Translations under genes and position numbers: made by a program
Shown here: one piece after another, positions 3,152 through 61,200 of the stretch
Layout of the letters: every line of letters begins with the position of its first letter
Position numbering within the stretch: the stretch's first letter is position 1
Notes under the pieces: generated by a model
Database searches by the model: none
Seen by the model: the letters and a program-made list of their open reading frames with translations, nothing else
Told to the model about the DNA's origin: nothing
Source: Hirudinaria manillensis
Taxonomy: Eukaryota > Annelida > Clitellata > Hirudinida > Hirudinidae
DNA: 64,000 nt
NCBI GenBank assembly: GCA_034509925.1
Contig: CM067536.1
Location: 5,078,501-5,142,500 of the forward strand
Direction: 5' to 3'

Positions 3152-3440
3152 CTGGAAAGATTAGAATATCATATCAGAAAAAGGCTAAAATCAGATAACA
3201 ACAATCAATCTATTCTTTATTTAATTGAAATAACATGTTATTTAACGTTATTTAAATGTTTAAAAATGAATCAAACGCTCGATTAATAATCAAATAATAA
3301 AGAAAAGTAATAATTTAAAACCATTAACAAATGACAAAACATGATTGCCTAATTGATTGAGCAGAAGATTCAAAATGCGCGCAACACCGATTAAAAGTAG
3401 TCCAGACTTAACAGCTCGAAAGACAAGCAACTACATACAC

Positions 3441-3486
3441 AAATATATGTATATATATACATATATATATGTATGTATGTATGTAT
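3441..3486. repeat. ATAT/ATGT microsatellite
   Basis: Alternating TA run passing into ATGT tetranucleotides. Confidence 0.85.
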
Positions 3487-6232: not shown

Positions 6233-7261
6233 AAAAATTTTGCAGGTTAGGACCAGACGACTGTGTTTCTGCAAGTGGCACCAAAATAGAATCAAAAGTC
6301 GTGCTCGTAAACAAGACTGTGTCGTGGCATGCAAACCCCAGCAAATAAAACTATTGCAGTAATTTGTTAATTATTGTATGAAATTATCCTATGAAAGAAA
6401 TGCCATTAAGAACTTTATCACCTCAAAATAACTTAGAAAATCTTATTTTGAAAACAATGCCTCTTAAGAACTCTTACAACCCCTTATAATAAATGATTGT
6501 GATATTGCGATGATCACTTGATCCAATTGAAACGTATTCAAGGGGATCCAAGGAGATCTGGAAAGTTATTCCGAGGCAAGCATTTGAATATTTCTGTTTA
6601 TTTTGATGGAATAAATCAAATGAATAATTTCATCTTTTCACGTTTTTTGATAATTACATGGATGGACACTTCAATGAAACACCAATAAAAATAACGAACT
6701 TCCAAGAACATCTTTCAACAATAAAAGCTTCCTTCATCATCATCATCCTCGTCGTCACCATCATCATTATCATCGCCACAAGTTACATGAAATCCAAGTA
6801 CAGGAGATTCAATAGAACACAAAGGATTCAAACGTTCTGATTGGCGAGGAATGAAAGTAAACGACACGACAAGGACGCGAGATAGGTTTCCGATTGGATG
6901 GAATGGATGACCTTGAATAAATTATGAGCGACCTTGTTGCGCAATGGTGTGGCACACACAATCTCTGCACGAGATTGGTGTTCATAAATAAAAATATGAC
7001 AATTTGGTAATTCGAGATGCTTTTAAATCCTTAAAAAAGTGCATTTTACCAAACTAAATCTTACAATGTACAACTTATGAATCATAACCACCATCGTCGT
7101 CGTCGTCATCATCATCCTCATCATCAGGAGTATCGGGAGTAGCACGGAGATTTGAGTCGACAAAGTACAAAACCAAGGACGAGAAAGTACATTCCACTTA
7201 AGAACCGCTCTCGAGTATGCACGACACAACATGAAGATGAAAGGATACATTCATAAGCACA

Positions 7262-33622: not shown

Positions 33623-36600
33623 CTAACTCTTTTTTTGGGAACTTTGTTCTGCTGAATCATCATCATCATCATTGACATTCTTATGCTTTCTTTTCATTCG
33701 TAAATTTTCGCTGACAGATTTTGTTTTGAATGCGTAGAGTCTTGTGGCACAAACTGTCTGTTCAGAAGAACCAAAGTTTACTTTGTACTTAGGCTTTGAA
33801 GTACGTCCAACTTTGTCTGCCAGTTCAATGATTTCAACCAATATATACTTAGGTTCTCCATCTTCTCCATTGAGGGGATCAATAACTTTACATGCTACCA
33901 ATTGTTTTTTGTAATAAATACTAAAATCCTGAACTAGTTCGTGATGAGCTTCAATCGATATTTCAATGCCTAAAGGCACTTTATATGAAAAAGCACTTAT
34001 TCCTAAGTTATTCAATGTGTCATCAATATCATCAGGCTTTACACTCAAAATTTCTTTTATTTCCATCCTTGCTAAAGGAATTTCTAGAAAGGATGCCAGT
34101 GTTGAAGACAGATTTAAAAGTAATTTGTTCATTTTTACGTTAGGAGAAATGTAAACTTCAATTGTTCCATTTTGATGATCCCGCTTAATAAAATAGGGTA
34201 CTTCTTTCAAACTGTCTGTTATAATATTTTTATCCAAAACATAATGCACTTGAATTGATTCCTTTCCAAAAAACTTTATTTTATTTATTTTTTCAATAAA
34301 ATCTGACCCTGAGGGTTCATTAGATCCACAATTATTACCTGAAAAGTTACTTTTTAATCTTGATAGGCCATCCAAGAAATAAGGATGCACTACATTTTTT
34401 TGAAAATTCTCAACAATTTCTAATTTGATATCTCTTCCAATGCTAGATATATTTTCTTCCAGAAACTCATCGAGTAGTTTTGGTCTGACACATTGAGGCA
34501 ATTTCATCAATATTTCAAATCCATCTGTTATAATAACTGAATTTGCTATAGAAGGGAAATTACTAATTTCTTTTACTTCATGTCTATTGGTGCAGTAAAT
34601 CTTCGTTGAATCACATAATGTGCTTCCTTCAGAAGGAAGGAATATTGTCTTTAAATGTTCAAGATATGAACCATTTTCTTTTAGAAGATTCAATAATTTT
34701 TTAAATAATTGAACAGCAATATTTTTCAAATTCAGGTCCATCTTCTGGTTACCAATAATAGCTTGTATTTCACTCAGAGATCCAGTGCACTGCTTTATTG
34801 TCACACTTTTTGAGGCTCCCAATTGGGTAAGAAGATTTTCCAGCTTTCCATAGTAACCTGGAAGTTTGACAATATAAGGAAAGATTTGATCGCCAGAGCA
34901 AATGTCGATTGCAACTTGGTCTGGTCGAACTAAAGCATGCAAGTCATCAATATACAAATACTTGGTACTTTGTAACACCTTCAAAGCCTCTTGGTCCAAA
35001 TTTTTAGAGTTAAACCATGAGAGATGATCTTCTGTGAGTTTTTTTATTACAGTGTCGATATCTAATTGCATTCCTGATGAAATGAGTCTTTCAAATCCAC
35101 ATGAAATATTTTTGATGTTGTTTGCAACTACATTTGAATCTATTTCAGTTTTGACATTCAATTTTCCCAGTAAATCTTTTTTAAATTTACAAACATCAGT
35201 TGGTAGAAAAACTGAAACAGTCCAACATAAATCAATATTACGTGGAAGCATTGAATTCTCAAAAGATATGTAACTTCCATGGCAAGGTCCACAGCAGATG
35301 TTCAAGAGTGTTTTATCAATTTTAAATGGGTATAAGAAAGGAATTGATTTCACTTCTGTCAAAAACTGACTATCCACCCAGCCATTGAAAGATTCAGTGG
35401 AGATTGTATCAATCATTATGGATTGCACCTCTGAAGTATCAAATTGCAATTTTGGTAATTTTTTGGCATATTCCAAAAGCTTTTCTTTTGACAGTTTTAC
35501 CACTAAGCCACATTGGATAACAAACTCTCTCCAATAATCAGAACAGAATGGATCTGGAATAATTGGTTCTTTCATTGTAATAAATGGCTGTTTCTTATCA
35601 TAAAAATAAGATGCTTTTCTTAATTCACCATTATATTCAATAAAAGCAAAATTCTTCAATCTTTGGAGAAACTGGTTATCTCTGAAATAGATCAAAATTT
35701 TTTTAATCCTTTCTAAGTGTCTCAGTCGGTCGGCTTTGTTGAACTGAGGAAAAGCATCAAAAAGGAACATCATATAAGCTTCTGCGCAGGTAAGAATTTG
35801 AACATTTAGAAATTGAAAGATATTTTTAAGTGTGTGATCTTCTTTCAAAATAATTTGTGAGCCACACACAATTGCCACATCAAATGAAGGGATGTCTTCT
35901 GGAAAAGTGTAACATGTTGAATTATTCAATGCAGTTTGACTGCCATTTATGTCAATGAAGAAGCAAAGAGATTTCAAAATTTTGGAGGCATTTTGGCAAG
36001 TTTTTATCATATTTAGATTGTCATTAAAATAACGCAGAATGGATAGTCCATGATGTTTTGATGGAAGGTGTCCTAGTTTCAAATTTAGAAAGACATCCTG
36101 TAGAACTGTTAACATATTTGTAGGATTCTCAACTCCAGCAAATAAATCTTGTAATTCAGAGCTAAATTTAACCAACTTCATGTCTAACTGAGGAACTCCT
36201 GCAGCTTGGAAGCTTTCCAATAATTCTATCAAATTCCATCTCACTAAATAAACCCCAGAAGTGGTTCTTAAAGTGGGAGTGGTTCTTAAAGTGGGTCTTA
36301 AAACACAAAGCCTTTTGTGCATAGGATATACATAACTGTTGTTATTCAGTGTTACAGGTATAATGGGTAAGTCTCTAATTAGATTAAATCCATTCCTCCA
36401 ACAATCCTGTGCATCATTGATAAAGTCCCAAACTGCTGTAAGCCAGTGGATGCATTGTGATTCACTACCAAAACACTTGCAAAGATTATCAAAATTCAAT
36501 GGATCATTGTGACACATTGCTGCCATTAAACATGGAAAATCTTTTATAAATTCAGCAAAATCAGACATTCCTAACTTTTTTAAAATATTTATATTTTTGA

Positions 36601-39600
36601 AAAATGGCTCCACAGCAGGATGAATGAACCAATCTGATTTATGTGGGACAGTTTTGCAGTGTTTTGATTCGAACAGCGAAATTTCTGGATTCACTTTTTG
36701 CAAGACATAGCTTGATGACAGTAAAAGTGGGAGATCAGCACTTGAAACATCTGGTAGAATATTTCTTATGTATTCTAAGACTGCAATAACTCTTGGAAGT
36801 GATTCAAATGGAGTGGTCTCCAATTTTTTCGGAAGATCTTTGAAGATTGGTGCTGAAGATAAGTGACTTACAACATTTTCTGGAGTAATACTTTTAATTT
36901 CAGCACATCCTGAATTTATAAAATTGTACTGGAGATTAAGTGGATCAGAAATTATTTTGAGTTTACAAAAATATAAGGTTTTCCTTAACAAATCATTCCT
37001 TTCATCCAAATCATCAAAATATGTTTGGCTGTCAATATGTGTCCATTCACTAATGTCACTTGTGGGTGAATATAGAAGGAACAGATCCAGTTTGTATTCA
37101 TAAATGTGTTTATAAACATTATTTGTTATTATGTCTAATGTCTCGCTATAATCATTTGGAAACATTCTATAAAAGTTACACAACAGAGTTTTTCTTTCTT
37201 CTTCAGTTTTTATTTTTATGGATTTTCCTGTTAATTCTCTTTCCTTCAAATAAATCAACAATGTGCAATAAGCAGGTGCAATTATTTGAGCCAACACTGC
37301 ATTATTCCACTCGATCCACATTTCGTTGCCTTTGTCATTCCACATGGTCCTCCTGTCTTCATAGTTCAGAAAGAAGTGACCATTTATGTGAACAGGAAGC
37401 TTGGTGGTCATTTTAAGAGGAAGGAATGTGAATATTTTACCAGCTTTCATTGTACCACACTGGAATCTGTCAATTTGGTATGCAACTCCCCCATAAGGTT
37501 GAAGATTTATATCACCTTTGTTGTAAGCTTCTGAAATTGGATCAAGTATCTCTTGTGCATTATTAAAACCAAATTTCTGAACTAATATCCAGTTAGATCC
37601 TTTGGAAGTACAATCATCTATTTTAACTTCATACAAAACTTCCTGACTCTCAACTTCTTTAAGCAAAATAACTTTATTTTGAAGTTTTTTAGATATGTCT
37701 TTTGTACTTTCCATAAATTTATCTTTTTTGGCTTTGAAAACTTTATCAAATTGAAGGCACACTTTATGTATTCCTTCAGGCATTACACTCTTTTGTGATG
37801 AATCATATGCAACATTTATTATATGGATGGACTCGAGAGATTTCAAGAAGAGCAATAACAAATGGGATTCCGTCTGAAATTCACTCAATAACGTTTTGAC
37901 TTCTTTAATGGACACAATGTCTCCACGAAGTTGAGATAATTTCTGTGACTGGGAATTTCTCAATGGTAATCTAAACATAGTTCCTTTCTGATGAACATTG
38001 TACTTGTCAATATTTTGTAAATAACCTTCATAAACATGTGGAAAAACATCTGTTATTATTTTACTTTTGTACAAAGCACCTGGCTCAGTTAGACAAGAAT
38101 CAGGAAGAAAGTGGCAGCTAGGATCAAAAATACCTAAAACATTCCCTGATATATCTGAATCATTTTTGCACTCAACATCTGAATTTATTGTTGTTAAAAA
38201 AGATGGAACATCAGTCAAGCGATAAACACAATTAAAACCAACACCATATTGGCCTGTCTTTGTGATGTCATTTTGTTTCGCTCCTTCACCCAAATTCTGA
38301 ATTCCATAAAGATCATTTAAAGTAAAAGATGTGTTGTTGTAGATACACAAAGCAGGGCCTTGCAAAGGTTTCCAATCATCACAAAAAACCTTTTCACTAG
38401 GCAAATTTCTTGTGTCGGTTATAAAGTGTATCTCTGATGCAGATGCGTCATCTGCATTTTGGATCATTTCTTTAAAAATTGAATCATCCTTTGGATATCC
38501 AATTAGAATTCTATTTATTCTATTAACCAATTTTTCCTTTTGACCAAAGGAAAATGAAAGTCTGGAGTTTGACATGAAGTTTTGGCGTGCCATCTTGATC
38601 CCCAAACGCGAAGCTAATGAAATTGATATTTTGTCGTGACAACATTCACTGCCTTGAAGTTTTGACCATTCGCAGTCATTATATTTTAATTGTAAAGAAA
38701 GGCACATAATTCCTTCTTTGCTTGGAAGGTAAAATGCTTCAGTAATTGTACCTGTCTGAGACATGCATTCTAATATGTTTATGACAACATCCAATGTTGA
38801 TTCATCAAGTTTGACAGAACAAAACTTTTTTTGAATTTCTTTTAATAAATGCACAAATTCAGCCATGGTGAATTTGTCCTGTATTCCAATGGCTTGGCAT
38901 ATGGACTCCCACCTAATTAAGGCAGTTTCATGCACCCCAAACATGTATGGACATAATGACCTGTGAACAGACTTTCTGCATTGTTTTGATGTTAGTAATC
39001 TACCTGGATGACTATTAGAGAGAATAAATCTCAGTTCTGAGAGCTTTGAAAGTTGATGGTTGTCCAGATGATTACCTCCAGTCATATAATTTAACTCTTC
39101 ATACAGTTTTTCAATAATTGATCTCATTGTCTTTTCTTCCATCTTTTCATTTCTTAGTGAATAATTATCACTTTCATCAAAATGTTTGTTAAGCTCTTCT
39201 ATAAGAATTTCAACTGATTCAAAAGGAAGAAGTTTATCTTTTAATCCAAAATGATTTTTAATGCTCGGACATCTTTTCTTAAAACTTTTAGACTCATTAA
39301 TCAAAGAACTAGAAGGTCCTGCTATCAACATTTTGTCTTCAAGGTATCCATCTTTGCAAGACACTAAATATGAAGTTTGTTGCTTCCATGATAAAGGATA
39401 CTCTTCAGGCTTAACTTTGATTGTGAACATTTTTATGCTTTTAATTTTATTGATATATGACAAATCAGGCTGAATTCCTTTAGAATCAAGGTCACTCAAA
39501 TAATTTTCAATCAAATTCAGTAAAATTGGCAATCTTATCTCCACTGATTTGGGGTACTTTTCCACAGAATAACATCTATCAATTGTCTCTTCTTGTGTAA

Positions 39601-42600
39601 GCGAGTCTGGATTTTGACGCATTCCCAAGCAACGAAGCATTTGCAAATATGAATTCTCTTTATTTTTCATATGCTTTGAAACAAAAGGGAACATTTGATC
39701 CTCCTCATCAAATAATTTGGCAATTGTTGACTTTGGATCAATGAGATCTTGAATCAATTTTGTAATTTGGCCATTAGGAGTTACAGGAATGCAAGCATGT
39801 TTTGTTAGGAATTCATTTAAATGACTGTCAGTCACTGTTTCTATAATAATTTCCTCTCTTTCTTCTTTGTTTATTAATGACAAATTTGGCAGAATCCATT
39901 CTTTATAAAATTCTTCCAATTGGACCACTTTTGACTGTAAACTAATTATTTCATGATTAATATTTAAAAGACAATCATAAATGTTTCTGGGAATTTTTAA
40001 TAAGGCAATCCCTTTATGGAGGCTGATCCTTTTCATTGAGCTTTCAATTGCTTTGAAGAAGCATTTGTCTTGCAGCTCAGTCCCAAGTATTCTACAGACG
40101 TTGAAACAATACATCTTATCATCAGCAATAGATTTGAAGACACAACAATTCTCTTTGATTAATTTAATGTAGATGGATTTTACTATTAAAGAATTGTCTT
40201 GCCAACTTGATGAGTTTGGGAAAATCTGGTATAAATTTAAACTCGATTGGTCTGCTAAGAATTTGAGCAAATTGCAGTAGGCTGATGTTATACTGTCGGT
40301 CATGAGCGCTTCATTCCATGTCCACCTTGGATCTTCTATGTCATCTTGAATTTTTGTATAAATCTGAGTACGACTCGAGTTCAAAGCAAAATATCCATTC
40401 ACATAAAATGGAAGGCTTGATGAGCATGGCAATGGCATGAAGCAGAACATTTTACCTTCTGGTAATTTTGGCAATTCTATGATTTGGACATTAGGAGTTA
40501 CAGGAATACGAGCAAGTTTTGGTTGCTTTTTGGAAATTTCTACTTTGATACCTACCGCTCCAACAGGCAATAGGGTTGGCTTCTGTTGATATAATTTATA
40601 TGACTCATTAACTCCTGTACACCAACTGATACACCAAAAATCATTTTTAGTTTTAGTTTCTTGTTCAAAGTATGTCTCAATTGTTTCAACTATGAACAGG
40701 AATTCATTGCTTTTTGCCTGTCTTGGCAATATTTTGAAGACTGATTTTAAGTATGAGAAATCTGTCACTTCAGGCATGTTGTAAATAGATAATCTAATTT
40801 TTCTGGATATACTATAATCTGCTGTCATCTGAGGGCCATTTGAATTTTTATCAATGTGAAAAAGCTCAATGGATTTCAGATTTTGTGCAAACAAAAACAA
40901 ATCTGCCCCAGATTTTGTCAAGCACTCAAATAGCTGATAAACTTCCTTCTCACTGTAATGATTCTGGCATATTTCACTTGATTGTGCCTGACTTTCTGTT
41001 CTCAAAGGAAACCTAAAGAGGGTTCCATTATACTTTTTTATATCACTAAAGTCACATCCAAAAATGTTATTGAAAGGAGCAAACTGATCTTTCAATTTAC
41101 TGAGTTTCTTATTTCCTTCTAACTTCATTCTAATTCCTGGGCAATTTTTGTTTGTCAATGCTTTCCCCAAATATTTGGTATGAGGATCAAAAATGACGAC
41201 ATAGTCACGGCTGACGAACATCGGAACCTCAGTTAGATTGTACACCGAATTAAATCCGAGACCAAACTTTCCTATCTTTGCAGACATGCCTTCTTTTGTT
41301 GCTCCTCCTAATTTGGTAATGTTAATAAAGTCTTCTTTGGTAAATATGGCATTGTTGTGACACCAGATGGCAGGTCCTTGGAGATCCCCCATATTTTTAT
41401 CGAGGAGAATTTTTCTATTATCTTTATTGGCTCTTTCATCAAAAACGAAGCTTATTGAAGTTGCACCAGCATCATCAGCATTTTGAATGAGTTCTTTTAA
41501 TACGGACAGACCATCAGTGTAATCTCTCAATAGCCCTTTCAAACGTGTCGTTATGGGCTCCTCTTGACCCCAGCTCTCAAACTCCTCAACATTCACCAAT
41601 TTACTCAAGCAACTCGCAATGTTCAAATTTTCTGCAGTCTTCATAGGAATTTTGTCGTGTATCAGATGAATGTTGTCATCAAGGTCTTCCATGTCGAATC
41701 CATTTTTATACCAACTTTCATCACAATATACGCAATTTTCAATTGCTTCCATCTGAAGAGTCACATCTTTATCTGTTTTAATTGGGACATAAATTACTTC
41801 TTTGAAATTAGCAGGATCATCTTTGTCTGCCAAATAATTCAAAATCCTGATAGCAAGGTTTAAATCATTGTCTACCCTATCTTCATAAGCCTCTTCATCT
41901 TTTATATTTTCATGGTGTTCCTTTATCAACTTTAATAGATGGATGAAATCTACATGATCAGGAATATTTAAACTTTTCCACAAATTATTAAAACCCTGAA
42001 AGTCACTTGGCAGAACATTAATATAAGGTGTAGTATCAATCTTTGGAGGATTTCTAACAACCAAATCTGCTGAGGAAAATTTTTTGTCATCCCAAACCCA
42101 GGGAAATTTGGCATCCATTGATGTCTTGAGTTCAGTTTCTGAAAAACTATCTAACATTTTATAAATTTCAAAGACATAATTTACCATTTGAATTCTGGTT
42201 TGTGGCTGAAAGTTGATAATTAAGTTTTTCAAATGCTGCAAGATTAAATCAACACGTGGACGTTCATTCCATCCAAAGAATGCCTTAAGGCCATTTAAGT
42301 GTTCACAATCTACCAACAAACATGTTGAACCAACAATTTTTTCAAAACTAGAAGACACAACATCATAAATTCTAGCAGGACCAGTAACTTCTTTGCCTCT
42401 GTAAGTCAAGTAATCTGGGTATCCACAAGGTTTAACATTTTTGAATTTTATCCAATTTATTTGTCTAATCTCATTCTTGAAAGGTTCATCAAGCAAATGG
42501 ATCCTTTCATTCAAGAATTCTAGAAATTTGCTGAATATTTTTTCACCTATAGATCTATTTGGCATACTCTTTATTATTTTAATGCAATCATCTTTTGTAA

Positions 42601-43662
42601 TGAGGTGAGATTTTTTCAGTCCAAGTTTTATTAAAGAATCATGAAATTCAGGATTTTTCCAATCTTTGCCAGGAAAATCATCTTCCTGAAGAATATATTT
42701 CAAACTTCTGTCCTTGTGATCAAACAAATCTTTTGGTCTTGCTAATGTTGTTCCATCATGTTTAATCACAAAATATTTTTCTGATAAAACAGTTTTAGCA
42801 TTTTGAGATACAATTGGAAAATTTTGACAAATGTGTTTCATCAGAATCTGAATTTCTTCCTGATTGTAAAAATTGCATGAAATTCCTGGAATGAAGGCCT
42901 CGTCAAGAAAGCATTTCTCATCAAGTAATTTGATTGAAAGTAATTTTGCTAACTGCTTCGACGATTCTTTTGACAAATCCACCAGTTTAACAAATGATGG
43001 AATAGGAGGAATTTGATGATGATGATGATCACTCATAGCCACATCCACCTCATTCAAAGATACCAGTTCTGCTTTCTTTTTTCCACTATTGTGGATTGTT
43101 TTAAAGATTTTCAAGCTCCTCAAAAGATCTATCTCTCCTTTTGTTAACTGTTCAGACATAGTTTCTAATACCAGGCTATTGATGAAATAATCTTGTTCAT
43201 GGTCATTAAATCTATCAAATATTGATGATTGATCTTTCAATTGTCCTTCTAAGAACTTCAAAATGCTCTTTATTCTTGGTGGTTGGATACACACATTCCA
43301 CAAGTATGGATGCTTATAAACATCCTTGTTATGAGTGTCAACAAATTCTAGAGAGAGCTTTTTACATATTTTGATAAAATGTTTGTTTATTTTTGTATCA
43401 ATAAGTGAAGTTCCAATGAAAGTAGGACTCTCAGTTAACTTGACCACTTTATCATTGGATACCAATAACAAATGTAATCCTATCAAGTGATTCAAGTTAT
43501 CTTTGAAGTCCCTATTCAAACAATTCCATATTTTTTTGAGCCATTCATAAGTGAACCAATTCTCATTTAATAATTCAACTTGTTCATTAACAAATATTTT
43601 CAGTGCATCCTTTAAAAGTTTAACAAAGATTTCTTTACTGACTTGGCGAAGTTTAAAATGCT
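33623..43662 (-). CDS. SACS: Giant last exon of the sacsin-like gene
   Basis: One uninterrupted exon of 10,040 nt, residues 656-4001. An extremely large 3' exon is a known trait of SACS genes. It begins after a tight 65-nt intron (acceptor cattccag before 43662) with [13 protein letters not shown]. It carries sacsin repeats 2 and 3, each with the ATPase core followed by the long C-terminal repeat part (for example [20 protein letters not shown] near 40400 and [20 protein letters not shown] near 37400). The final 25 residues contain RMKRKHK and a run of five Asp. No frameshift or internal stop was found, so the gene looks intact. Open frames on the other strand inside it are shadows. Confidence 0.95.
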
Positions 43663-46600
43663 CTGGAATGAGATTAATTTTTATTACCAAAAATCATTAT
43701 TTTAAAAAAAGAAGATTGTTTAATTACCTGTAAATGTCTTATTAATTTGGAGAGACACTTTAGACAAGTCCAAAAATTTATTCTTATGCATAGGAAAGAG
43801 TTCCATTCCGTACCTTTCATCAGGAATATATATTCGAGCAGCTGATTCTGAATGTTGAAATGCTGTCCATGTGCCATCAGCCAGTGGCAGAAGTTGAACA
43901 CCTTCTAGTTCTTCGATATTCCTTAGATTAGCAAGGAAATGTTCTAACAAAATTATTTTTTCATTTTCTGAACAAATATCATTCTGCTGAACAGATTTGT
44001 AACTTCTGCAAACTTCATCTGCAGTAAGAGAAGTAATAGAACCTTTTGGAGCAATTAACAACAAATAATCAGGAAGATAAGCCAAAGCACTTTCAGCCTT
44101 TAACATAATTTTTTTGAATAAATCTGTCATTTCACCATTCTCAGTTGACAAAATGTATGGCATGGATGGTTGCCAGGTCAGAGTGGTAATTGAAAAGAAC
44201 TCCAGAGATCCAGTGACCATTTTTTTGAAAGAAGTAATCAAATTTCTCCAATGGTGGTTGACAATCGCTTCATTTGGGCATATTGAATATACATTAAGAG
44301 CCTGTTTTTGGAGAAATTCACTGCCTTTCTTCTTGTTTATCAACATTTTGTGCCTCTCCACAAGATGTACAAAATGTTTCTTGAGACAAATTGGAAGTAG
44401 TTTTTCTATGAGGAAATTGTTCCACAAGAGATCTTTGTCAGTGATTTTTGATTGGTCCTGATCAGCAGAAATCCACTTGAGATGTCTTCTATTTTGGTCA
44501 ACAGCAAATGATCCTTGAACATGGAAATAAAAACCTGTAGGACTCTTTTCTTCCAATGGCAAAGGCATAAAACAAAATATTTGTCCATATGGTTCACTTG
44601 ATGTATCCTCAATGCACTTCGATGCAACTCCAACTAATGGAAGGTAACCATCAATTGATTGCCCAGTGGTTGGCTCACTTGTTCTTCCTCCAAAGTGCTG
44701 AGTCACAATCCATGTTGTTGATCTGATTCTTCCATTGCCATCAACCACTTCAGTTTGCAGGGGATAATTTACTGTCAAGGATTTATTCTTGTACCATTCA
44801 TTAGCATTTGCCTCAATATGATTAGATAGCATTTGCCTGCCTTCTTTTGTCAATGTGGCCATTGGTTCTGGAACTTTAATTTCCAATAGTTTGGTCGTTG
44901 TTCCATTTATTTGTTCATAGAATTCAATGTGTTTGATATTTTTCAAAAAAAGAAAAACGAAATCACTCTCTGCCTCCAATGATTTCAAAAGTTGTAGAAC
45001 TTTCTTGCCATCATAGCAATTAGTTGATAAATCAGAATGCATTTCTTTATTTCTCAGAGGAAATCTAAACATGGTTCCATTAAAATTAGCAGATCTTAAA
45101 GTATTTTCAGTGGTTCCAAAAATATTTTGGATGAAAGGCTGAAACTGATGACTGAGCCTCTCAATATCTTCGGCATCTTCTTCCACTTCAAAATCCCAAT
45201 TATAACTCGATGTCTTCTCTGGTCGACTCTGACCAATCGCAGGACCCTCAAAAAATCTTTTGTGGGGATCAAGGAATCCAATAATTTTTCCACTGTATAT
45301 GCTGGGAAGATCTGTAAAGGGAGCCAGATGATTAACTTAACAAAAAAATGTAAAAAAGTTGTGATATTAATATTCTTTCAATTGTTACTTTTTAGAAAGA
45401 AAATAAATTTGATGGAATGGTGAAAGCAATAAGAAAGCAACTTCTAAAAAGATGCCAAAAATATTAGAAATCAGCTAATTATTATGCATCTGCAATTGTT
45501 TAAAGATAAGTCCAACATTTCCTGGACCACTCATTCATAATCTAAAACCACTTGTCACAAATAATTAAGCTAATGCTATATTAAATAAAAATTAATTAAG
45601 ATTCATGTAAAAAACAAGACATTGTTCAGCCAGCAATACCAAAAAAATTCAATTCTCTTCCGTGGTTGGGAAATCTATTAAATCTGCAAATCTCTTTAGC
45701 TATGGATCAACCCAATTTCATAATATTTTCAAGAACATCTAATGTTAGAAAGAAACCATATTTAATGAACAGGTCATTTGAAATTGTCTGAGCATTCAAT
45801 TAAACTCGAAAAATCAATCTTGCAAAAGGAGTTTTAAAAAAAGGTTGCCTAGTTAGAAACATTTTAGAATTGAAATTATTAACATTAAAATGGTCCTTTA
45901 GAAATTTTATTATTTATTTTATTAGACTTCAGCAACCTGTCACATGGAAAACAGATTTAAATCCAAGTCCAAACTTTCCAACTTTGAGAGGATCGTCTGC
46001 TTTAATGCTATCTTGAAGTCTTCGGATTCCCTCCCAATCTCTTTCAGTAAACTTAGCATCATTGTAGGCATACAATGCAGGACCCTGGAACAATTGAATC
46101 AATCATAATTATTATTATTGTTTTAATTTAGTGATAGTAAATATATTATATTATCTGCTCATTCTATATATTATATAATGTTGTAATCTAGGTGGTGGAT
46201 GGTATTTCATAAGTTGTCAAACTTTCTTGCAATTACAGCAATATATACGTACAAATATATATATATATTTATATTAGATATATTATTTAGATATTTATAT
46301 TTTTTTTCTCTGGATTATAACCCACCATTGTGTGCATAAATATAAAAACAATTACCAAATCAAATAATATTTACAGGTTGCGAAAAGCATATAATTTCTT
46401 GACAATCATGCATTGCTTATGTTTGCAATTGTCTCAAGAAATTACAACAAATTACCTACAGTAATCATAGATTGACAAAAATTACTATCACGTATCATCA
46501 TTACTAAGCAATTTTCATTGATAACTAATGACTTTTTGGAGACAAACCAGGCCCACAAATTACAAAGCTTTTGATGCATCAGGAAGCAATAACCAGTTAT

Positions 46601-47782: not shown

Positions 47783-48060
47783 TCCCAGGTTTGAATCACA
47801 ATTTGCCTTTTTAGCAACTAACGCTGCCAAAAGAGGCAGTACCTTTAACGTAAAGAAGCGGATATCGGCTTTTCCATAGTTTCATTTTCTAAGTGGGCTG
47901 ACTTATTAGCGTCATAGGAGCCCACCAGCGTCATAGGAGCCTGACAACAAAATGCGTGAGCCCGACAACAAAGTGGATCAGAAAATAAACAAAAACAATT
48001 ATTTGCATACAGCCAATCATAGGACGGAGGTGTGATTTGCATGTGATTAGGGCGGACCTG
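47783..48060 (-). promoter_or_regulatory. 5' flank of the sacsin-like gene
   Basis: The sequence just upstream of the sacsin start is less AT-rich than the introns and should include its 5' UTR and promoter. No TATA box or initiator could be assigned. It contains AGCGTCATAGGAGCC twice (47909-47942) and a 37-base segment (47924-47960) that recurs inverted at 51594-51633. Confidence 0.3.
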
Positions 48061-48539
48061 AAATAATGAAGTAAATCAATACATATATATTTATAAACCT
48101 GTTTGAGTTCATGAATGAAGCAGGCTCAATGATAGCCATTGTTTAAAAATATTTAAAGTATTTTAGCTCCAAGATTTTAAAATGATAATAACTTTGGGGG
48201 AAGTTTCTGATTAATCCAGGAGAAAATATTCAATGAGTAATTGCACTTTGTACTAAGGGTTTTACATGAAAACCACAATTAATGCCTGAATTTATCTTTC
48301 GCATCTTTCTAACTGGCTGAGTGCCCGAAATAAACAATTGTCCGCCATTGTTCTTGCGGGCAAACTCAAATTTGAGTCAAATAGCAAGTTTTAAAAGTCC
48401 CAGAACCCTCCCTAATCAAGCAACTGTATTTTTATAAGCTGTTACATTTGAAAAGCTGCCTACTACTGCCTAATTTCAATGATTTCACCTACTAAAATTT
48501 GCGAAATAGGAGTTGTAACAAAAACCAGCAATTGATATG

Positions 48540-50110
48540 TTAAAATAAAGGTTTAATTATTAGTAATATTTTCAAAAACCGGCGTAGTTTGAAATGCATT
48601 AATAATGGAGTTATCAAACAAACTTTAAATTACAGCAACAATAACTTTGAAATTCATTTATGTCATAGATTTCGGTCTAACTAAGCTTTTGATACATTTC
48701 CAGTAAATGTAGTAGGCATTAAGTAAGAGTTTTTGAAAAAAAAAGACTAAAATAATATCGAGTTATTTGAATTTCAATGAAGGGACGCGATCCATTTTAA
48801 GTCTCAAATTAATATATTGAGATGGTTTTCTGGGCCCATTTTCAGATATGTTGTGTATTAATCATATATCTCTCCGATACCAAACTTTCGGTTCCCAATT
48901 TGTTGTGGTTTTAGAGTAAATTGGAAATAACAAAGCATCGCAACTTTTGAGAATCGAGTTCGGCGAGCAAGTCCAGTGACTTGAGTTTGCGCCCTATAGG
49001 CTCTTTTTCTCAATTACGAAAATTAGAAAAAAATTAAATTCAAAATAATTTAGGCAATAGGTTAATAATAAGAAATGTGAATGATAAAGCCGAAGTTGGG
49101 ACTTCTAAAGTGAATAGTTTGCCCTATAGGCTCTTTTTCTCAATTACGAAAATTAGAAAAAAATTAAATTCAAAATAATTTAGGCAATAGGTTAATAATA
49201 AGAAATGTGAATGATAAAGCCGAAGTTGGGACTTCTAAAGTGAATAGTTTTTCTTATAATCTCGAAAATATAAAATGGACGCGAAACTCTAAAAATTCTA
49301 AAACCTAAAGTTTGATAAAATGTGTGATAAACTATCTTCAAAAAGTTCATTTTGCTATCAATAGCGAAGTTTTGTGGTAAAAATGAGCAATTTTGCAAAC
49401 GTTCTTTACAGACGACCCCTGGCGTGTTTTGAAAACAATTCGTCGGGGACCGGCCTGATTAATTTAAAATATGAAGTTTATTCAAAACTAATATTATATA
49501 ACTCAAAATAAAGATTTAATTGTCAGTAATGTTTTTCTAAAATTGATTTTACTTGAAATTTAATATTAACGAAATTAGGAAACATAAACCTTTATTTTCA
49601 TTCTCATAATTTTTAAATGTCATGCATCTTAGTACAAATAAGCTTTTGAAATACTTTTCAAAGTACTTAACAAACGTTAAATGGAAGTTTTTGGCCGAAA
49701 AGACTAAAATAATAGCGAGTTTTCTGAATTAAATTAAGCGACGCGATTCGTTTAAAGTCTCGAATTAATGTATTAAGACGGTTTTCTGACCCCATTTTCA
49801 GACATGTTATGTCTTAATAATGTATCTCTTCATTACCAAATTTTCGGCTCCAAATATGCTGTGGTTTTAGAGTAAATTGGAAATAACAGATCATCGCAAC
49901 TTTTGAGAATCGAGTTCGGCGATCATGTCGAGTGACTCGAGTTTGCGCCCTATAGGCTCTTTTTTCTCAATTTCGAAAATTATGAAAAAAATGAAATTTA
50001 AAATAATTCAGGTAACAGGTTAATAATAAGAAGTACGAATGATAAAGCCGAAGTTGGGACTTCTAAAGTGAATAGATTTTCTTATAATCTCGAAAATATA
50101 AGATGGGCGC
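48540..50110 (+). repeat. Diverged tandem duplication, about 960-bp period
   Basis: The blocks 48540-49290 and about 49500-50110 align over most of their length with moderate divergence. Landmarks shared in order are TTTTAGAGTAAATTGGAAAT, GCAACTTTTGAGAATCGAGT, TTTGCGCCCTATAGGCTCTT and GATAAAGCCGAAGTTGGGAC. Confidence 0.85.
48991..49250 (+). repeat. Near-perfect 130-bp tandem duplication
   Basis: GCCCTATAGGCTCTTTTTCT begins at 48991 and again at 49121, and the following 120 bases are essentially identical. This is much younger than the 960-bp duplication that contains it. Confidence 0.95.
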
Positions 50111-50116
50111 GAGACT

Positions 50117-51568
50117 CCATGTCGTTTTTGGCATCGTGAACAAAATAGGTGGATTTGCAAGAAAATGTAAAGGACGAAATTTGTAGAGGATAGTTTCATG
50201 ATTCGTTTGATGTATTGATTTTTAAATTTGGTTCAGTGGAACTGCTGCGTTTCGAGTTAGAATAATCGCCGGCTAGCGATTTTTTCTCAACTTATAACTA
50301 GGTCATTTCTTCCGACCCCATGTCGTCTTTGGCATCGTGAACAAAATAGGTGGATTTGCAAGAAAATGTAAAGGACGAAAATTGTAGAGGATAGTTTCAT
50401 GATTCGTTTGATGTATTAATTTTTAAATTTGATTCGGTGGAACTGCTGCGTTTCGAGTTCGAAGTTGACTCAACACGAAGCGGAAGGGTGCATGTCGTTT
50501 TTGACATAGTGAACAAAATAGGTGGATTTGCAAGAAAATGTAAAGGACGAAAATTGTAGAGGATAGTTTCATGATTCGTTTGATGTATTAATTTTTAAAT
50601 TTGGTTCAGTGGAACTGCTGCGTTTCGAGTTAGAATAATCGCCGGCTAGCGATTTTTCCTCAACTTGTAACTAGGTCATTTCTTCCGACCCCATGTCGTA
50701 TTTGGCATCGTGAACAAAATAGGTGGATTTGCAAGAAAATGTAAAGGACGAAAATTGTAGAGGATAGTTTCATGATTCGTTTGATGTATTAATTTTTAGA
50801 TTTGATTCGGTGGAACTGCTGCGTTTCGAGTTCGAAGTTGACTCAACACGAAGCGGAAGGGTGCATGTCGTTTTTGACATAGTGAACAAAATAGGTGGAT
50901 TTGCAAGAAAATGTAAAGGACGAAAATTGTAGAGGATAGTTTCATGATTCGTTTGATGTATTAATTTTTAAATTTGGTTCAGTGGAACTGCTGCGTTTCG
51001 AGTTAGAATAATCGCCGGCTAGCGATTTTTCCTCAACTTGTAACTAGGTCATTTCTTCCGACCCCATGTCGTATTTGGCATCGTGAACAAAATAAGTGTA
51101 TTTGCAAGAAAATGTAAAGGACGAAAATTGTAGAGGATATTTTCATGATTCGTTTGATGTATTAATTTTTAAATTTGATTCGGTGGAACTGCTGCGTTTC
51201 GAGTTCGAAGTTGACTCAACACGAAGCGGAAGGGTGCATGTCGTTTTTGACATAGTGAACAAAATAGGTGGATTTGCAAGAAAATGTAAAGGACGAAAAT
51301 TGTAGAGGATAGTTTCATGATTCGTTTGATGTATTAATTTTTAAATTTGGTTCAGTGGAACTGCTGCGTTTCGAGTTAGAATAATCGCCGGCTAGCGATT
51401 TTTCCTCAACTTGTAACTAGGTCATTTCTTCCGACCCCATGTCGTATTTGGCATCGTGAACAAAATAAGTGTATTTGCAAGAAAATGTAAAGGACGAAAA
51501 TTGTAGAGGATATTTTCATGATTCGTTTGATGTATTAATTTTTAAATTTGATTCGGTGGAACTGCTGC
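50117..51568 (+). repeat. Higher-order satellite: A/B dimers of 373 bp
   Basis: Eight units start with CATGTCGT at about 50117, 50319, 50491, 50692, 50864, 51065, 51237 and 51439. Long units (about 201 bp) end in the CGCCGGCTAGCG...TTCCGACCC tail; short units (about 172 bp) end in the GACTCAACACGAAGCGGAAG tail. They alternate strictly, giving a dimer period of 373-374 bp. Both types share AACAAAATAGGTGGATTTGC and GTGGAACTGCTGCGTTTCGA. The 69-codon frame at 51096-51305 is a by-product. Confidence 0.95.
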
Positions 51569-51577
51569 CTTTTGAGC

Positions 51578-51676
51578 GGTTTCCTGATTTCGTGCTCACG
51601 CACTTTTTGTTGTCAGTCTCGTATGACGCTGGTTAGGAGCCCGTAAACAAAGTGCGTGAGCCCGGACTCAGGAAAT
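51578..51676. repeat. Hairpin at the satellite turning point
   Basis: Arm 1 (about 51580-51610: TTCCTGATTTCGTGCTCACG plus CACTTTTTGTT) pairs with arm 2 (about 51645-51674: AACAAAGTGCGTGAGCCCGG plus ACTCAGGAAA) around a loop of about 35 bases. Confidence 0.8.
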
Positions 51677-51990
51677 CGCTTGCCATAACTCAAAACGCAG
51701 CAGTTCCACTGAACTAATTTTAAAAATAAATACATCACACGAATCATGAAACTATCCTCCACAATTTGTATTTTTTAAATTTTCTTGTAACTCCACCTAT
51801 TTAGTTCATATGGTCAAAAACGCCATGGAGCCGGCAGAAAAGACCCATTGAAAAATCGCTTGCCGGCGCAAAATGTAACTCTAAACGCAGCAGTTCAACT
51901 GAACCAATTTTAAAAATAAGACATCAAAAGATCAGGAAATTATCCTCTATAATTTGAAGTTTTTAAATTAACTCTATTTATTAATTTCAT
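51677..51990 (-). repeat. Two satellite units in reverse orientation
   Basis: Reading the minus strand recovers the satellite: AAACGCAGCAGTTCCACTGA, ATGAAACTATCCTC and CCACCTATTT...GTCAAAAACG in plus-strand order are reverse complements of the unit at 50491. A second, more diverged inverted unit follows, with AAAATCGCTTGCCGGCG at 51854-51870 and AAACGCAGCAGTTCAACTGA at about 51885. Confidence 0.85.
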
Positions 51991-52232
51991 TCGACCCAAA
52001 ATGCTTCTGAATTGCACGCGCCCGCTGCTAACGGCCATCATTCAATTAGTTTAAATTTCAAATCTTAATGTCCCGCGTATATAAGTAAACATTGCGAGAA
52101 AACCTTTTCCCTTGTTCTGCTTGGAATGTTGAGACCGGTATTTCGAGTGATATATATTTCTATAATATAACTTTACGTTTTTTTCGGGCATATAGTAATA
52201 TAGCTTCTAGTAATAATTAAATAATTAAAATA

Positions 52233-54420
52233 ATGTCGCGGCATATCTTTCTATATAAGAATGTCAGGCGTACCAAGTTTTTAGTCGCTTCTGTTGTTGA
52301 GGTTATGGGTAAGTACGAAGGTAGTCCTTCCGAAATCATTCGGAAGACTTGCTAAGAACTTCAGATGTCTTGGTCCGAAAGGTCTAAGAAATTACTGAGT
52401 GATTTGCATTACCGGTATTTTACGAAGGGAGATAGAAGAATGAAGATCACTTCAGAGGAAGAAACATTCTACGCCGATGGAATGGGCAACGACAGCGTGT
52501 CGACGGTAACAAGTTAAAGCGAGTGATTTTTTATGGGAAATTTATCATTAATAACATTTACCCTAGATATCAGCCGTATTGGAGGAGAAAGATGGGATTG
52601 TTATTCCCGAAACAGCATCTGATGTAATGGAAGCCGAGGAAGAGGAAGTGGGAAATGTTACTCCAGAAACAGTAAGAGTCACCTTTGATTTATAAATGTT
52701 TGTCATCATTGACTAAGGAAAACTATAATTTTAGATGTCAGGATGGGGTGGCTCCATCGTGGAAGCCTCTTCGTGATCAGAAGAAAGTAGAAGACGACAC
52801 AGTAACACATCAAGCATTGCAAAAATCTATTCAAATTGATATGTAATTCAATTTTTTAGAACGGGTTTGACAAACCGAGGGTAATAACTCGGGCAATAGA
52901 ACAGAATACAATGGCTGCTAAAATCCCCAAGGATCTTGCAAAGCCAGGAAGGTCGCACACTGAAAGACCTGAGTTGGACAAATGTTGTCTCTGACGTGCT
53001 CGAACCCATTCTATTCCTTCGTGTTCCGTCGGCACGAGGTGGCAGTACAGGATTCCAAAAGACTTGGTAAGCTCTTTACAACTAGTGGATCGTGGTCTTT
53101 TTTAGGTTTGTTGTTTTGACGTATTAAAAGTATATCTATTTAGAGTAAGAGAATGGCAAATAGCGATACACTTCATTGTCAGGTCAAGTTCAAGTTTTAG
53201 ATCAATATTGATAAGCCCTTCGAAGGAGTTGCTACATATTCCTCCGACATATGTGTGCACAACGTGGGTCAAACCGTTAGAAGGCCAGTCCGGGGAAAGA
53301 AGCTGATGAGAAGCTTCGCCAAGAAACTATAGAACGTAAGTCCGTAAGTTAAATGGGTTGGCAAAAGAAGTGAAGGAACTTGGCAACAGAGATGGCATTC
53401 CCAGCATAAGAGTAAATGAGTTGCTATATTTCTGTTTTGCCAATTAAACACTTATATAAATTAAGATAACTTAGGCCTTGGATCAAATGCGGTACGAGTC
53501 TCACAAAGAACAAAGGATCCACGACAATGAGATGGAAGCCCTGGATCAATTGATCCAGGAAAATCCTTCCGGGCTGGACTCATTAAGGGGCGTCGTGATC
53601 TCCACCTTTAAGACTGTTTCGATGTGGTCTCTCGTAACCATGTCTATCCTTCTGAAGAGGTGGAGTGAAGACGTTACTTATTTTGATGCCACCGGAGGGA
53701 TTATGAAGACATGAGACAAACACTTTTACGTGTACGAGGTAAGATACTTGAATACGGATTAATGACATTAGCATAGCATCTTATGTTAAATTAAATGATG
53801 TAGATGGTGGTAAGAAACACAGTGGAAGGTCAGATACCTCTGCCTGTACTGACAATAGTGACGATGTCAGTTCGATCGGTAAGTTGCGTCCTTGGTATTT
53901 TAATATTTGATTTTATACGCCGTTTTGGGTTGGACGTGCTGAGACCCAAGATGATAATCATGGATGGGTCCCTCGTTCTCCTACAAAGCTTGTTGGAATT
54001 TTTGGGATAAGATATGTCGAAGTAACTGGATGCTTTGTTACAAATCCGACGTGCTCTTATGTTCTTATGTTTAATTTTTTGTTATTTTAAGTGCTGAAAG
54101 GATATTACAGGATCTGCACTAATTCTGCGAAGAAGAAAGACTTGGATCTTCCAATCCTTTACCGATGTTTAAGTTACATTATGAAGAAGCCAAAGAGTGC
54201 TGCCGGAAGTTGTTCGTACATTACATTTTATATTTTATATCGCATATTTTTGATTGGTTTTTTTATTAATAGCTTAAAGCGGGAAACCCTCAAGATGTCA
54301 CGAGGACATTGAAAATTAAGAAGAATTTGCTGCTGACCCAACGTTCGACTACGACCAGAAGAATAGGGTATTTCTATACTTAGATAACGGGCATCCAGAA
54401 ATAAAAATATACTTTTTATA
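52233..54420 (+). pseudogene. Decayed intron-rich DDE transposase-like gene
   Basis: A chain of short exons is joined by consensus splice sites: 52233-52308, 52365-52505, 52567-52671, 52735-52801, 52860-53066, 53144 onward, about 53478-53738, 53804-53878, then unspliced-looking pieces to about 54400. Six inferred introns are only 56-77 nt. Readable blocks are YSSDICVHNVGQTVRRPVRG (about 53240-53297), ALDQLIQENPSGLDSLRGVV, WSEDVTYFDATGGIMK (about 53660-53708), FYVYE|MVVRNTVEGQIPLP, RPKMIIMDGSLVLLQSLLEF (about 53943-54002) and CTNSAKKKDLDLPILYRC (about 54115-54168). The Asp in YFDATGG and in MDGS are placed as the first two acidic residues of a DDE/MULE-type transposase would be. In-frame stops (for example TGA at 53712) mark it as inactive. 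The superfamily assignment is tentative. Confidence 0.5.
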
Positions 54421-56162
54421 CATTTCCTGCAGACATTTTGCAGCGACTATTGAAAGTGACGGATAACTCGAATATTTCACCCGGAAGTAGTATCAGAAAT
54501 AGTAGATTCTACACCCTGGAATTCCTAAGTAAATTTCGAAAATTATTCATACCTGCTGCACCGTTATGGACATGTTTGGTGCTAGGCATTTCTACTAACA
54601 TATAATTTATCGTGACGATATTAAATCTTAAACGATACCAACAGTCGATCTTGGAAGACACGGGAAGGGTGAGGAGTTCCACGAGATTTTTAAAAACACA
54701 GTGCCATGACAGTCCAAATATGTCGATTTGCCTTGGTTGATGTTGTTGCAACACTTTAATTTATTCTGGTACTGAAGCGTATAGTCTGGGGCCATAATAT
54801 TGAATAGAAAACAATTTCAAAGCAGATTTAGAGAAAGGACTATATCCATTAATTTAAATGATCTGAAAAACCTTATGAATTTTCGTCTCTTACATACTTT
54901 CTATTGGTTGTAAAGATGCCTGATAATATCTGTTACGTCCCGTAAAGTAACGTACATTATTAAAATGATAGCTTCGGACGAGAAAATAAACGATTTCGTC
55001 AATATGCCCGCTGTGCTACCATGTTGCTACGCTGCTGTGTTTCTTTTTATCGTCACAACGAAACCGTACCAGTGGATATGTACAAACACATAATGCACTT
55101 TTTAAAAGTTATATTTATCTCTTCCTCATTTTCCTATTGGAAAAAAGTGTCTTTTAAGTCTCCCGGTAAGTGTCTTTTGGCGGATTGTCTCGGGACGGGT
55201 ATTACTGCGTATTAGTATGTGGTTCAAGGAATGGATTGAGATGATTATTATAATTTTTGGATTAAGAAATTAATTTTAACGTATGCATTTGTGACTGGAT
55301 GATAAGGGGTCCCCCGTATGGTGCACTAACTTTGAAATTCCTCTGATAGGAAGGGTATTGCAATGACCTGACACTCGTGCAGACTGCATAGTGATGAAGG
55401 CAATACAAAATCATTAGTGCATTAGAGGAAGAAAACTGGATTGATATATTATCTCATTGCGATAAATGAAGGACTGCAAGGGCTTATTACTCCTTCATCG
55501 ATAAATATTTCGCCATCTATGACAACTGCTTTCTTATTACTGATAGGTAACTTGAGAAAATAAAGCCGTTTTTATTTGATAAAATAAATATAAACCCTCG
55601 TTACTATGCCACTCTCGCTACTATGCCACCCGTTGGGACCGAGCGAAGGAGACTTGAGTGTAATTGACAAAAGAAGTGTACTTAATTGAAACCCGATAAT
55701 GGTTTAATTGAAAAGAAAATGAAATAAAAATAATAAAATAGGTCGAAAGTTTACAAAAAAATGCACATAAAAATCTATTTTGTAATTTTATAAATTAGTT
55801 ATCTTGTAGTCCCTAGGTGGCAGAAGTGTTTTGTCCTGATGCAGTATTTATTTATTTATTTTAAAATCTTTTAACGAAATTTAAGATTTGTGATAGATTC
55901 ATATATGTCACCCAAAAGACCCGAGTTTTGTCAAATTTCAGTTCATTTGGATGTTAGGAAGTAATCGAAAAATCGATTGCAAGATTTGAACGTCCACATA
56001 CCAAGTTAAATAAAATCGTGTAAGAAGATAAATATCAACTTTGAAATTCTATTATATATAGTATATAGTATATTGTAATCTATTAATGTAATCACTGCAA
56101 TTGCGGAATGAACTAGATTTTCAGTGTTGGTAGGAACGACAACGCGAGTCAGAAATACGTTA

Positions 56163-58261: not shown

Positions 58262-61200
58262 ATGGATGAAAAAGTGTGGTCAATTATAGTCTTTGTGCTG
58301 GCCATGGTTCCATGGATATCATACTGCCTCATGCTTTTCTTCTTTGCAATTTCCCTGCTCTATGGGTTAGTCTTTAATTTAAATTAATTTAATAAAAATT
58401 AAAATTAATTTTAAAAAAATTGAATTCATGTTAAATTAGTTGAATTAGACTGCCCAGTTTAATATTTTATAGCTTAAACCTTTACCTTGTCTTCTTTCAT
58501 TATCTGGTTGTTTAACATCATATATCACGATCAGATTGATTCCTCACAAATTTCGGTGCTTTGTTTTGAGTTTGAGTGCAGTTCTGTGCAATTTGCTTAT
58601 CAGAGTCATTTTTGCTTGATAAATTATGTGATATGATGTCATAATGCTAACAAGCTGACTAATTCATGGTTAACATATTCATAGTTGTATGTTATTTTTG
58701 GATGTTTTGTTTGACAATTTCTGATTTACTTTACTTGGAAATAATGCTTTAATATCCGTTTGTTGATGAAATAATAATGTTCAATATAATAATACAAATA
58801 TTATTATTGACAATTCAATATTACTTCTAATTAATTTAAATACAAACAAAATAGAAGCAAATATGCATTTTATAGAATTTGAAACCTGCCTAGGAACACT
58901 CATAACTAATGAAATAGAAAATAATAAATTGAGAATCAAATCAGTTTTAGGCATTTGAAGCACTGTTCGAGATTATTTATTAATTTAATGAAAATTATTT
59001 GTTATTTAGCCACACTTTGGCAATTGTTTTTTTACATTTAACCTCCCTCCTCCCATGTTTATTTTTTAAAGTTTTGGCAAAACACTCCTGACTAGTCTAC
59101 TTAAACTTGTGTCACATCAATAATTGATGGGTCTTTGTAAGAAAATAAAATAAAATGCTTTTTATTTAAACTCCTCAATATTTGGGTTTAGATTTCATTG
59201 AAATATTCTTATAATTATTTGTTCATAGCTATTAATGCAAATTAAAAATTATTTTTAAAACACACTTTGAAAGAATTTGGCTTTCAAGCGAATACTGTTT
59301 TGGCTATCAGTGTACATTAATTTTAGCTTAGAACAGGTGCATTGGGCTGTCTCTGAGCAGTTATTATTGAAAGGACAGCCCCTTAAGCTTTGTTTGAAGT
59401 CATTCTTTGTTTTTATTGTGTGCGTGTGTGTGTGTGTGCGTGCACGAGAATACGTGTCAGATAATAAAATTTGAATATGTGAATTCCTATAACAAGAGAA
59501 TATGCTTAGAATGAAAGTAGCGTGGATACCATCATTGACTGTCATTGGGTTAAACATCATTCTATAATAAATATTATATAATAATATCATTCACTACATA
59601 CATCTCATGTCATTCATTTTTCCCAATCATCTATCCTCTGTGTTCTTCCAATGGGTTGTATGTAAATTAGCTTTTACAAAATATCATGGTGGATGGATTT
59701 TTCTAGGTTATATTGGAAGACAAACAAGCATTTGCCTGATGCTGTTCACGTTGGTGCTGGCTTTTGGTAGATTTAGATGATCTTATAAATAGAGCAATGA
59801 CTATCATGAGGGTTGGAGATGCTTTATTGTGGATATTTTGCCATTATTTTGCTGGGGAAGTTTGTGGTTGAACATCACAAGTTATGGTTGAACATCACAA
59901 GTTATGGTTGAACATCACAAGTTATGGTTGAACATTACAAGTTATGGTTGAACATCACAAGTCATGGTTGAATCATTGTTGTCAGGTTAGAAAATCAAAA
60001 GCCACGTTCCATTTTGGAGCCAATAATATTTTAATACATGTTTTGTCTCTAAATTTGTTGCAGACATGTTTACTAATGTAACCAACCTTTTTTTTGTATT
60101 CTGCAGCAATTATAGAATATTTTTCTAGAATAATCCACAACTAGGATTATAAAAGGGTTGGGGCCATTTTTATTTTTATCATTCCTTCCAATGAAACCGT
60201 GCAGGGAGAGAATGTTGCTGTGTTATCTGTTTACAGCCAATGTTTTTCCTAAAAACATCTTCATTGTTGGTGCTGGAATTTGGAATTGTTTAATATTCCA
60301 CCAGTGAATGAAGGTGAAGATCCATTCCCATCATAATTATTGTGTTATTTCATTAAACCGATTTTAATAAATCAAATGATTTTAATAAGGTCTTAATGTA
60401 TAACAATATAAATGATTAAATTTTTATCACAAAAAAACATATTCCCATATGAATTGAAACATTAACCTTTGTGTCTACCAGACTTATCAATTTGCATTTG
60501 CATTTCTTTAACTTTTGGTTTAATTTATTTATTATTTAAGCCTGGGAACTTTGGACGAATTTTAATAACCTCTTTATATCCTGTGAATTTTTAGGAAGTA
60601 AACTCTACTGACTGACTACTTTTAAAAAGTGGGTGATTGATTCAAGGGGACTTTATGAGCTTATTTCAAGTTCAAATCAATGAAAAACCAGGCAACTTCC
60701 TACAAATTCACAGTCAGAAAAAGTGACCGAGCAAACGCAAACGACAGATACGTACAAGGGATTAGAACAAGTGTTATTTATTTATTTTTATTTATTTGTT
60801 TATTTATTTTCAAAACTGTAGGACCAAGAAGGACTCACTGAATCGAGTTTGTATGTTATACATAAAACATAAAGTAACAACACAGCCATCAAATAAATGT
60901 TAAGTAATAATTGTCTAAGTCAAGTTCGGCCAAAACGGCCAAAACAGGGAAAGTAAGAAAAATAACTTAAAAAAATAAACTCAGAGAGCCAGCCTTAAGG
61001 AGGCACATTCAAGAACAGTTTGAAGGAGAATTTCCTCTTAGAGGAATTTTTTTATTTAAGTTTTATTTAAGTTTATTATGTCACTAAATAAAATGAAATC
61101 TTGGATATAAAACATGTCAGTTATTCAAGCTTTTGAACTGCCAAAAGTCTGATCTCCAGATCAGCTTGTGTTAAATGTTTGATACTTTACACTGTTTGAT

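Follow-up and report, generated by a model that had tools for sequence, protein, structure and literature searches.

Nested copies of a DNA transposon, most likely of the Rehavkus type, with a satellite-bearing arm in the leech Hirudinaria manillensis

Rehavkus transposons, which are Mutator-related, are described in PMC6446971 as having a 9-bp target-site duplication, terminal repeats of 26-400 bp, a PHD finger, a minisatellite on the C-terminal side and hosts among arthropods and annelids; according to the same source very few are known, and these are described in Repbase only. In the case of Rehavkus-1_TC of Tribolium, an element of 9.5 kb, a 164-bp satellite lies within the inverted termini, and the account in PMC10218199 places the same satellite in both of them, mostly as five and eight monomers. 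Tandem repeats are also found in the arms of other elements. For instance, Tetris, a Foldback element of Drosophila virilis, is portrayed in PMC4079207 as having long inverted arms with ~220-bp tandem units in variable number, 8-10-bp duplications, derivatives and satellite expansion, and no apparent coding capacity. Tm1, a Mutator/Foldback element of root-knot nematodes, has 9-bp duplications, composite termini with repeats of a ~14-bp motif, a Phantom-type transposase of 496 amino acids, and both transposase-bearing and gene-less forms (PMC3169594). The subject here is a stretch of 64,000 nucleotides from the leech Hirudinaria manillensis (GenBank assembly GCA_034509925.1, contig CM067536.1, positions 5,078,501 to 5,142,500), called the window below and numbered from its first base, in which two copies of a single DNA transposon family, presumably cut-and-paste and most likely Rehavkus, are nested one inside the other.

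The inner copy, element 1, lies inside the left terminal repeat of the outer copy, element 2. Element 1 (47924-51633, 3,710 bp) starts with ACCAGCGTC and ends with GACGCTGGT, and is bounded by two identical 9-bp target-site duplications, TAGGAGCCC, at 47915-47923 and 51634-51642 (a perfect 9/9 match). Its ends, 47924-47965 (+) on the side of the unique arm and 51590-51633 (-) on the side of the satellite, align as an inverted repeat (47924-47965 against 51633-51590) with 88.6% identity over 44 bp, confirming the inverted boundary motif recognized in an initial annotation of this DNA. The arms are inverted copies of each other over these outer 44 bp only, one containing a satellite and the other a duplicated unique block. 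In the unique arm, 48542-49128 (+) is repeated directly at 49505-50086 (+) with 79% identity and an offset of 963 bp, in agreement with the 960-bp duplication reported earlier, and a perfect tandem duplication of 130 bp occupies 48991-49250 (+). The satellite arm (50119-51580, +) consists of eight units, a 201-bp type (A) alternating with a 172-bp type (B), with successive spacings from 50119 of 201, 172, 201, 172, 201, 172 and 201 bp, a truncated final unit and a higher-order period of 373 bp. Units of the same type are nearly identical (97-100% for A against A, 97.7-98.8% for full-length B against B, 95-98% for the truncated final unit), whereas A and B differ by a 29-bp indel and share ~85-87% identity.

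The TAGGAGCCC 9-mer belongs to the terminal repeat of element 2, whose outermost left end, ATTAGCGTCA (47905-47914, +), is separated by element 1 from the rest of the repeat and from the short satellite arm and leader that follow it (51643-52125, +). When element 1 and one TAGGAGCCC are removed, so that 47905-47923 runs straight on into the sequence from 51643, the alignment with uninterrupted satellite-end arms elsewhere in the genome shows no gap at the join. The rejoined end is identical to the arm of a full-length relative on C6, described below, at 180 of 224 aligned bases and to that of locus L019 at 179 of 227, while its match to ends with a unique or mixed arm is limited to the outer part (105/173 for L027, 112/189 for L030). 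The satellite of element 2 (~51686-51969) is inverted relative to that of element 1, and 51686-51955 aligns in inverse orientation, at 76-85% identity, with stretches of 50115-51576. The initial annotation had proposed a hairpin at the point where the satellite changes strand; the inverted satellite is indeed present, but since the rejoined arm is continuous, the 'hairpin' (~51580-51690) is the place where element 1, at its right end, meets the interrupted left end of element 2.

Beyond the leader, element 2 carries a decayed, truncated, intron-rich transposase-like gene (52222-54753, +), delimited by alignment to the C6 copy, with which it shares 87% identity over 52222-54296 and 81% over 54295-54753, introns included. 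The exon with the first catalytic-aspartate-like motif, YFDATGG, is placed at 53475-53738 (+) by analogy with the corresponding C6 exon, and is interrupted by an in-frame TGA. The DDE-like block, 'YFDATGGI...IIMDGS...CLSH', is conserved between paralogues, which bears out the earlier description of a multi-exon gene with such a block. A Ulp1-like region, a PHD finger and the right end of element 2 were not found in the 64-kb window, nor was a target-site duplication of element 2's own, and the remaining sequence of the C6 element has no match in the window outside 47900-52200. A short dispersed repeat, with at least 14 other genomic matches, occupies 54750-54850, exactly where similarity to the full-length element stops.

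The full-length relative (C6:6488622-6499060 of the same genome, G000; 10,439 bp) has inverted termini with CATCCAGAC on both flanks, a perfect 9-bp duplication. Its terminal repeat is followed by the satellite arm and a leader, and these in turn by the spliced gene, a minisatellite and a second arm. The minisatellite, with 4.9 copies of a 134-bp unit (L031 2272-2926), begins ~45 bp past the stop codon of the PHD-encoding frame, with the satellite arm at the opposite end, and the second arm is a reverse match of the unique, duplicated left part of element 1. Because element 1 matches both C6 arms in reverse and lacks the gene, it is a gene-less deletion derivative of a C6-type element, lying in reverse orientation relative to it. 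Beside the C6 copy lies another satellite, with periods of ~177/350 bp (L018 2212-3232), and the sequence adjoining it (L018 999-2211) matches window positions 48588-49932; this satellite stretch probably represents a sister subfamily.

By eye, 15 exons were placed in the C6 gene, and the 14 introns, of 55-114 bp, start with GT (one with GC) and end with AG. Blocks of the form D-T-G-G, D-x-S and C-x-S-H could be aligned in three paralogues, in one of which the first D is replaced by H. The C6 copy encodes a PHD finger (PF00628) scoring 29.9 bits against a cut-off of 24, and 26.0 in a longer piece. For the Ulp1-like region, the paralogue at C6:11255032 passes both thresholds (Ulp1 25.6 bits, cut-off 20.7; PHD 27.4). 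A sequence search of the PDB with the C-terminal part listed 56 entries with E-values of 1 or less, the lowest being 0.009; almost all are PHD-finger proteins, and none is a Ulp1 protease.

The structure of the family was followed across the 148-Mb genome. Termini like ACCAGCGTSATWSGAGCCYG, with up to three mismatches, occur 122 times, against 17 for the reversed pattern. Both ends were read for 21 pairs, namely 19 from selected loci, the C6 copy and the window, to which a copy at locus L013 (L013a) was added as a 22nd; the selected loci were picked for high satellite match scores and hence form a non-random sample, and some further partial copies remained unpaired. The 9-bp flanks of the 21 pairs agree at all nine positions in 14, at eight in three and at seven in one, while those of L012 match over 8 bp when shifted by one base, and no match is seen for L025 or L027. 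With the 9/9 flanks of L013a, 15 of 22 copies have perfect 9-bp duplications; for comparison, random 9-mer pairs from the window matched at eight or more positions in 89 of 200,000 draws. The copy at L025 (C15:94500-104400, 2925-5195) abuts another terminus and is flanked by 8-9-mers that are inverted rather than direct (CTCCCGACA and GTCGGGAGA), which may record an inversion between copies. Over a 1-kb stretch of the arm, 12 of 21 sequences match for more than 900 bp with pairwise identities of 97.2-100%, pointing to recent movement of the family. The satellite arrays in the copies read range from 2 to 11 units; the outer end often alternates, and runs such as BBBB and AAAAA occur. Thus, the strict A/B alternation of the initial annotation holds for the eight units in the window, but not across copies.

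The satellite itself was found at 41 places, 27 of which have a terminus match within 120 bp (one being the window's inverted stretch, where the near terminus is that of element 1). Ten of the other 14 were examined: nine end in a full GACGCTGGT (L012, L013b, L016, L017, L021, L023, L025, L026 and L028), and L013a ends in an interrupted one. The relation between arm and gene varies among seven additional loci that were set against the C6 element. In L029, arm, leader and gene follow one another as in the C6 copy. In L037 and L038, the arm and leader are followed directly by the Ulp1 segment, one minisatellite unit and right-arm sequence, the remaining gene being absent; these are other internal deletions of the full-length element. 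The leader (52101-52183) has eight matching places outside the window, and in all eight the Ulp1 segment directly adjoins it (C6:2037373, C6:1560234, C4:10045491, C4:6739124, C12:1378291, C8:3541109, C3:8009971 and C8:5082025); this arrangement is a recurrent deletion form in which leader and Ulp1 region are retained, with L037 and L038 as two examples. Segments encoding Ulp1 are also arrayed every ~540 bp at C6:5471225-5477771 and every ~1.4 kb at C9:5171889-5179342, arrays of tandemly amplified pieces of the transposase gene.

Several features argue for Rehavkus as the most likely identity of the family. The 9-bp duplication is present in the 15 copies mentioned above, the window copy and the 10.4-kb copy included. 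The PHD finger is encoded by the C6 copy and one paralogue, though missing from the truncated window copy, and the 134-bp minisatellite is located C-terminally, ahead of the 3' terminal repeat. The 44-bp terminal inverted repeats (88.6%) fall within the range given for Rehavkus, and the host is an annelid, to which the annelid erythrocruorin-linker domain (PF16915, with seven of eight matches above cut-off) testifies indirectly. Moreover, the lengths are similar (9.5 kb for Rehavkus-1_TC and 10.4 kb here), and the 172/201-bp tandem units of the terminal arm can be compared with the 164-bp units of that element. Unlike Rehavkus-1_TC as described, the present family has its A/B array in one arm only, and a duplicated unique block makes up the other. 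As a transposon, the element is real and well supported; it is most likely a new member of a kind already described, from which it differs somewhat in how the arms are laid out and in which domains are present. The initial annotation had suggested an undescribed kind of transposon, a view that does not stand, as the description of Rehavkus in PMC6446971 already includes the 9-bp duplication, the PHD finger and the minisatellite. Its proposal that satellite arm and transposase form one element holds for the C6 copy and for the order seen in L029, but the window holds two nested copies in place of a single element. Among the papers searched, none names both Rehavkus and Ulp1, nor does any deal with a leech along with a transposon, satellite DNA and terminal inverted repeats.

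A number of observations weigh against this identification. The Rehavkus label is drawn from shared features, and a link by sequence to the transposases of Rehavkus or Mutator elements could not be made: Pfam and NCBIfam transposase models gave no match to the DDE-like region, and a profile comparison by hhalign with Mutator transposases of the same genome gave no real match, with few sequences and low power. The third catalytic residue (E) of the DDE-like triad was not located in the comparison of paralogues. No intact gene was obtained for the C6 copy, as the frame of the exon model fails between exons 8 and 9 and three C-terminal segments could not be connected in frame to the other exons. 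At 13.7 bits, the Ulp1-like region of the C6 copy falls short of the Pfam cut-off of 20.7 bits, and it was not listed in a Pfam scan of the longer piece; the paralogue at C7:4703131 falls under both cut-offs (Ulp1 17.8, PHD 22.5). At the level of loci, arm and gene are both present in L030 but are separated by termini and a piece of the right arm; in L032 and L034, pieces of the gene occur with no satellite in the 4 kb fetched; and L033 does not match the C6 element.

It is rather improbable that the family is instead an ordinary Mutator-like element (MULE), such as Phantom, or a member of a new superfamily, in which case the PHD finger and the 9-bp duplication would be convergent. CxxH is a signature of Mutator-like enzymes, and the 9-bp duplication and the D..D..CxxH blocks suit such an enzyme. 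A minisatellite past the transposase frame is likewise tabulated for the Phantom elements of aphids (PMC6446971), and this, together with the layout of L030, lowers the confidence in a Rehavkus nest. On the other hand, the gene has no match to PF10551, whereas other loci in the same genome match that model well, and in the available portions of the table of PMC6446971 the PHD finger is listed for Rehavkus alone. Two routes to a Mutator link were tried and rejected. Membership by sequence similarity found no footing in the DDE-like region with Pfam, NCBIfam or hhalign, and in the case of C4:9218588, a PF10551 match ~1.1 kb from a terminus-like site (C4:9219948), the terminus faces away from the MULE gene.

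A Foldback-type element (FB, Tetris, Tm1) with long inverted arms of tandem repeats and 8-10-bp duplications has little to recommend it over Rehavkus. The tandem repeats in the arm, the 9-bp duplications, which fall in the Foldback range, and the many rearranged copies do recall Tetris (PMC4079207) and Tm1 (PMC3169594), as do the gene-less derivatives and the satellite expansion. However, long inverted arms of shared tandem repeats were not found, the inverted repeat of element 1 being 44 bp only; in contrast to Tetris, the arms are dissimilar and the full-length copy has a gene. The PHD finger and Ulp1-like region of that gene go unmentioned for Tetris and Tm1 in the available portions of the two sources. 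Finally, that satellite and transposase gene are unrelated families and chance neighbours, the satellite being an independent tandem repeat, is very improbable: 38 of the 41 satellite places have no gene match within 5 kb, and the gene pieces of L032 and L034 stand without satellite, but in the C6 copy a single pair of termini, with the same 9-mer on either flank, encloses both satellite arm and gene, L029 has the same order, L037 and L038 join satellite arm, leader and Ulp1 segment, and 27 satellite places lie near a terminus, with all ten examined of the other 14 ending in a full or interrupted one. Satellite without a nearby transposase, which the initial annotation had named as evidence against its proposal, is thus literally present, but such copies, where both ends were read, share the termini and mostly the duplications; they are therefore gene-less derivatives and do not refute the link between satellite and gene.

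The window contains several other features. A giant sacsin-like coding region (33623-45336, -) comprises an open frame of 3,356 amino acids and another of 538, with SACS domains in both (501 and 82 bits). Broken, reverse-transcriptase-like retroelement frames lie at 9618-11477 (+), with an RVT_1 score of 45.6 bits for 10551-11474. In addition, AGTGGTTCTTAAAGTGGG occurs in two perfect copies at 36260-36295, a pair that presumably resembles hAT-type transposon ends, and a tandem repeat of 5.4 copies of a 20-bp unit, with 96% matches, lies at 59865-59972.

The full-length form is an element of ~10.4 kb with a short terminal inverted repeat, a satellite arm, a leader, a gene, the 134-bp minisatellite and a differently built second arm. 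The product of the transposase-like gene, with a predicted Ulp1-like region and PHD finger at its end, would bind the shared ~44-bp termini, excise the element and insert it by a DDE-type cut-and-paste reaction in which the cut is staggered by 9 bp. Derivatives like element 1, whose deletion has spared both arms, may be mobilized in trans, and the array of satellite units in the arm may grow or shrink by slippage or unequal exchange. Roles in regulation or targeting are conceivable for the Ulp1 (SUMO-protease-like) and PHD (histone-binding) regions. In the window, a gene-less derivative inserted into the left terminal repeat of the gene-bearing element 2, which is decayed and lacks its 3' half; the order of insertion and decay can be proposed only tentatively.

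Self-nesting is seen in two of the 22 copies. In addition to the window, L013 (C9:1604000-1613900, 1117-6324) has a copy b, with the duplication CGTATGACG, that interrupts the right terminal repeat of copy a; the flanks of copy a itself, GCTATACTG, remain intact. The chance expectation, calculated by hand from 122 termini of ~44 bp in 148 Mb and 22 copies, is ~0.001, although the observed count is biased upward because the window was chosen as odd and the other loci for a high satellite score. It is conceivable, if doubtful, that a Rehavkus-type protein joining a DDE-like core to Ulp1 and PHD regions prefers to insert into its own terminal repeats. If this were true, insertion of copies into one another would produce compound satellite palindromes and provide a starting point for higher-order satellites. 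With a 10.4-kb copy that retains both termini, deletion derivatives, and satellites of variable number and order, the family is well suited to testing how the arms of transposons give rise to higher-order satellites, and whether this transposase regularly includes protease-like and chromatin-reader domains.

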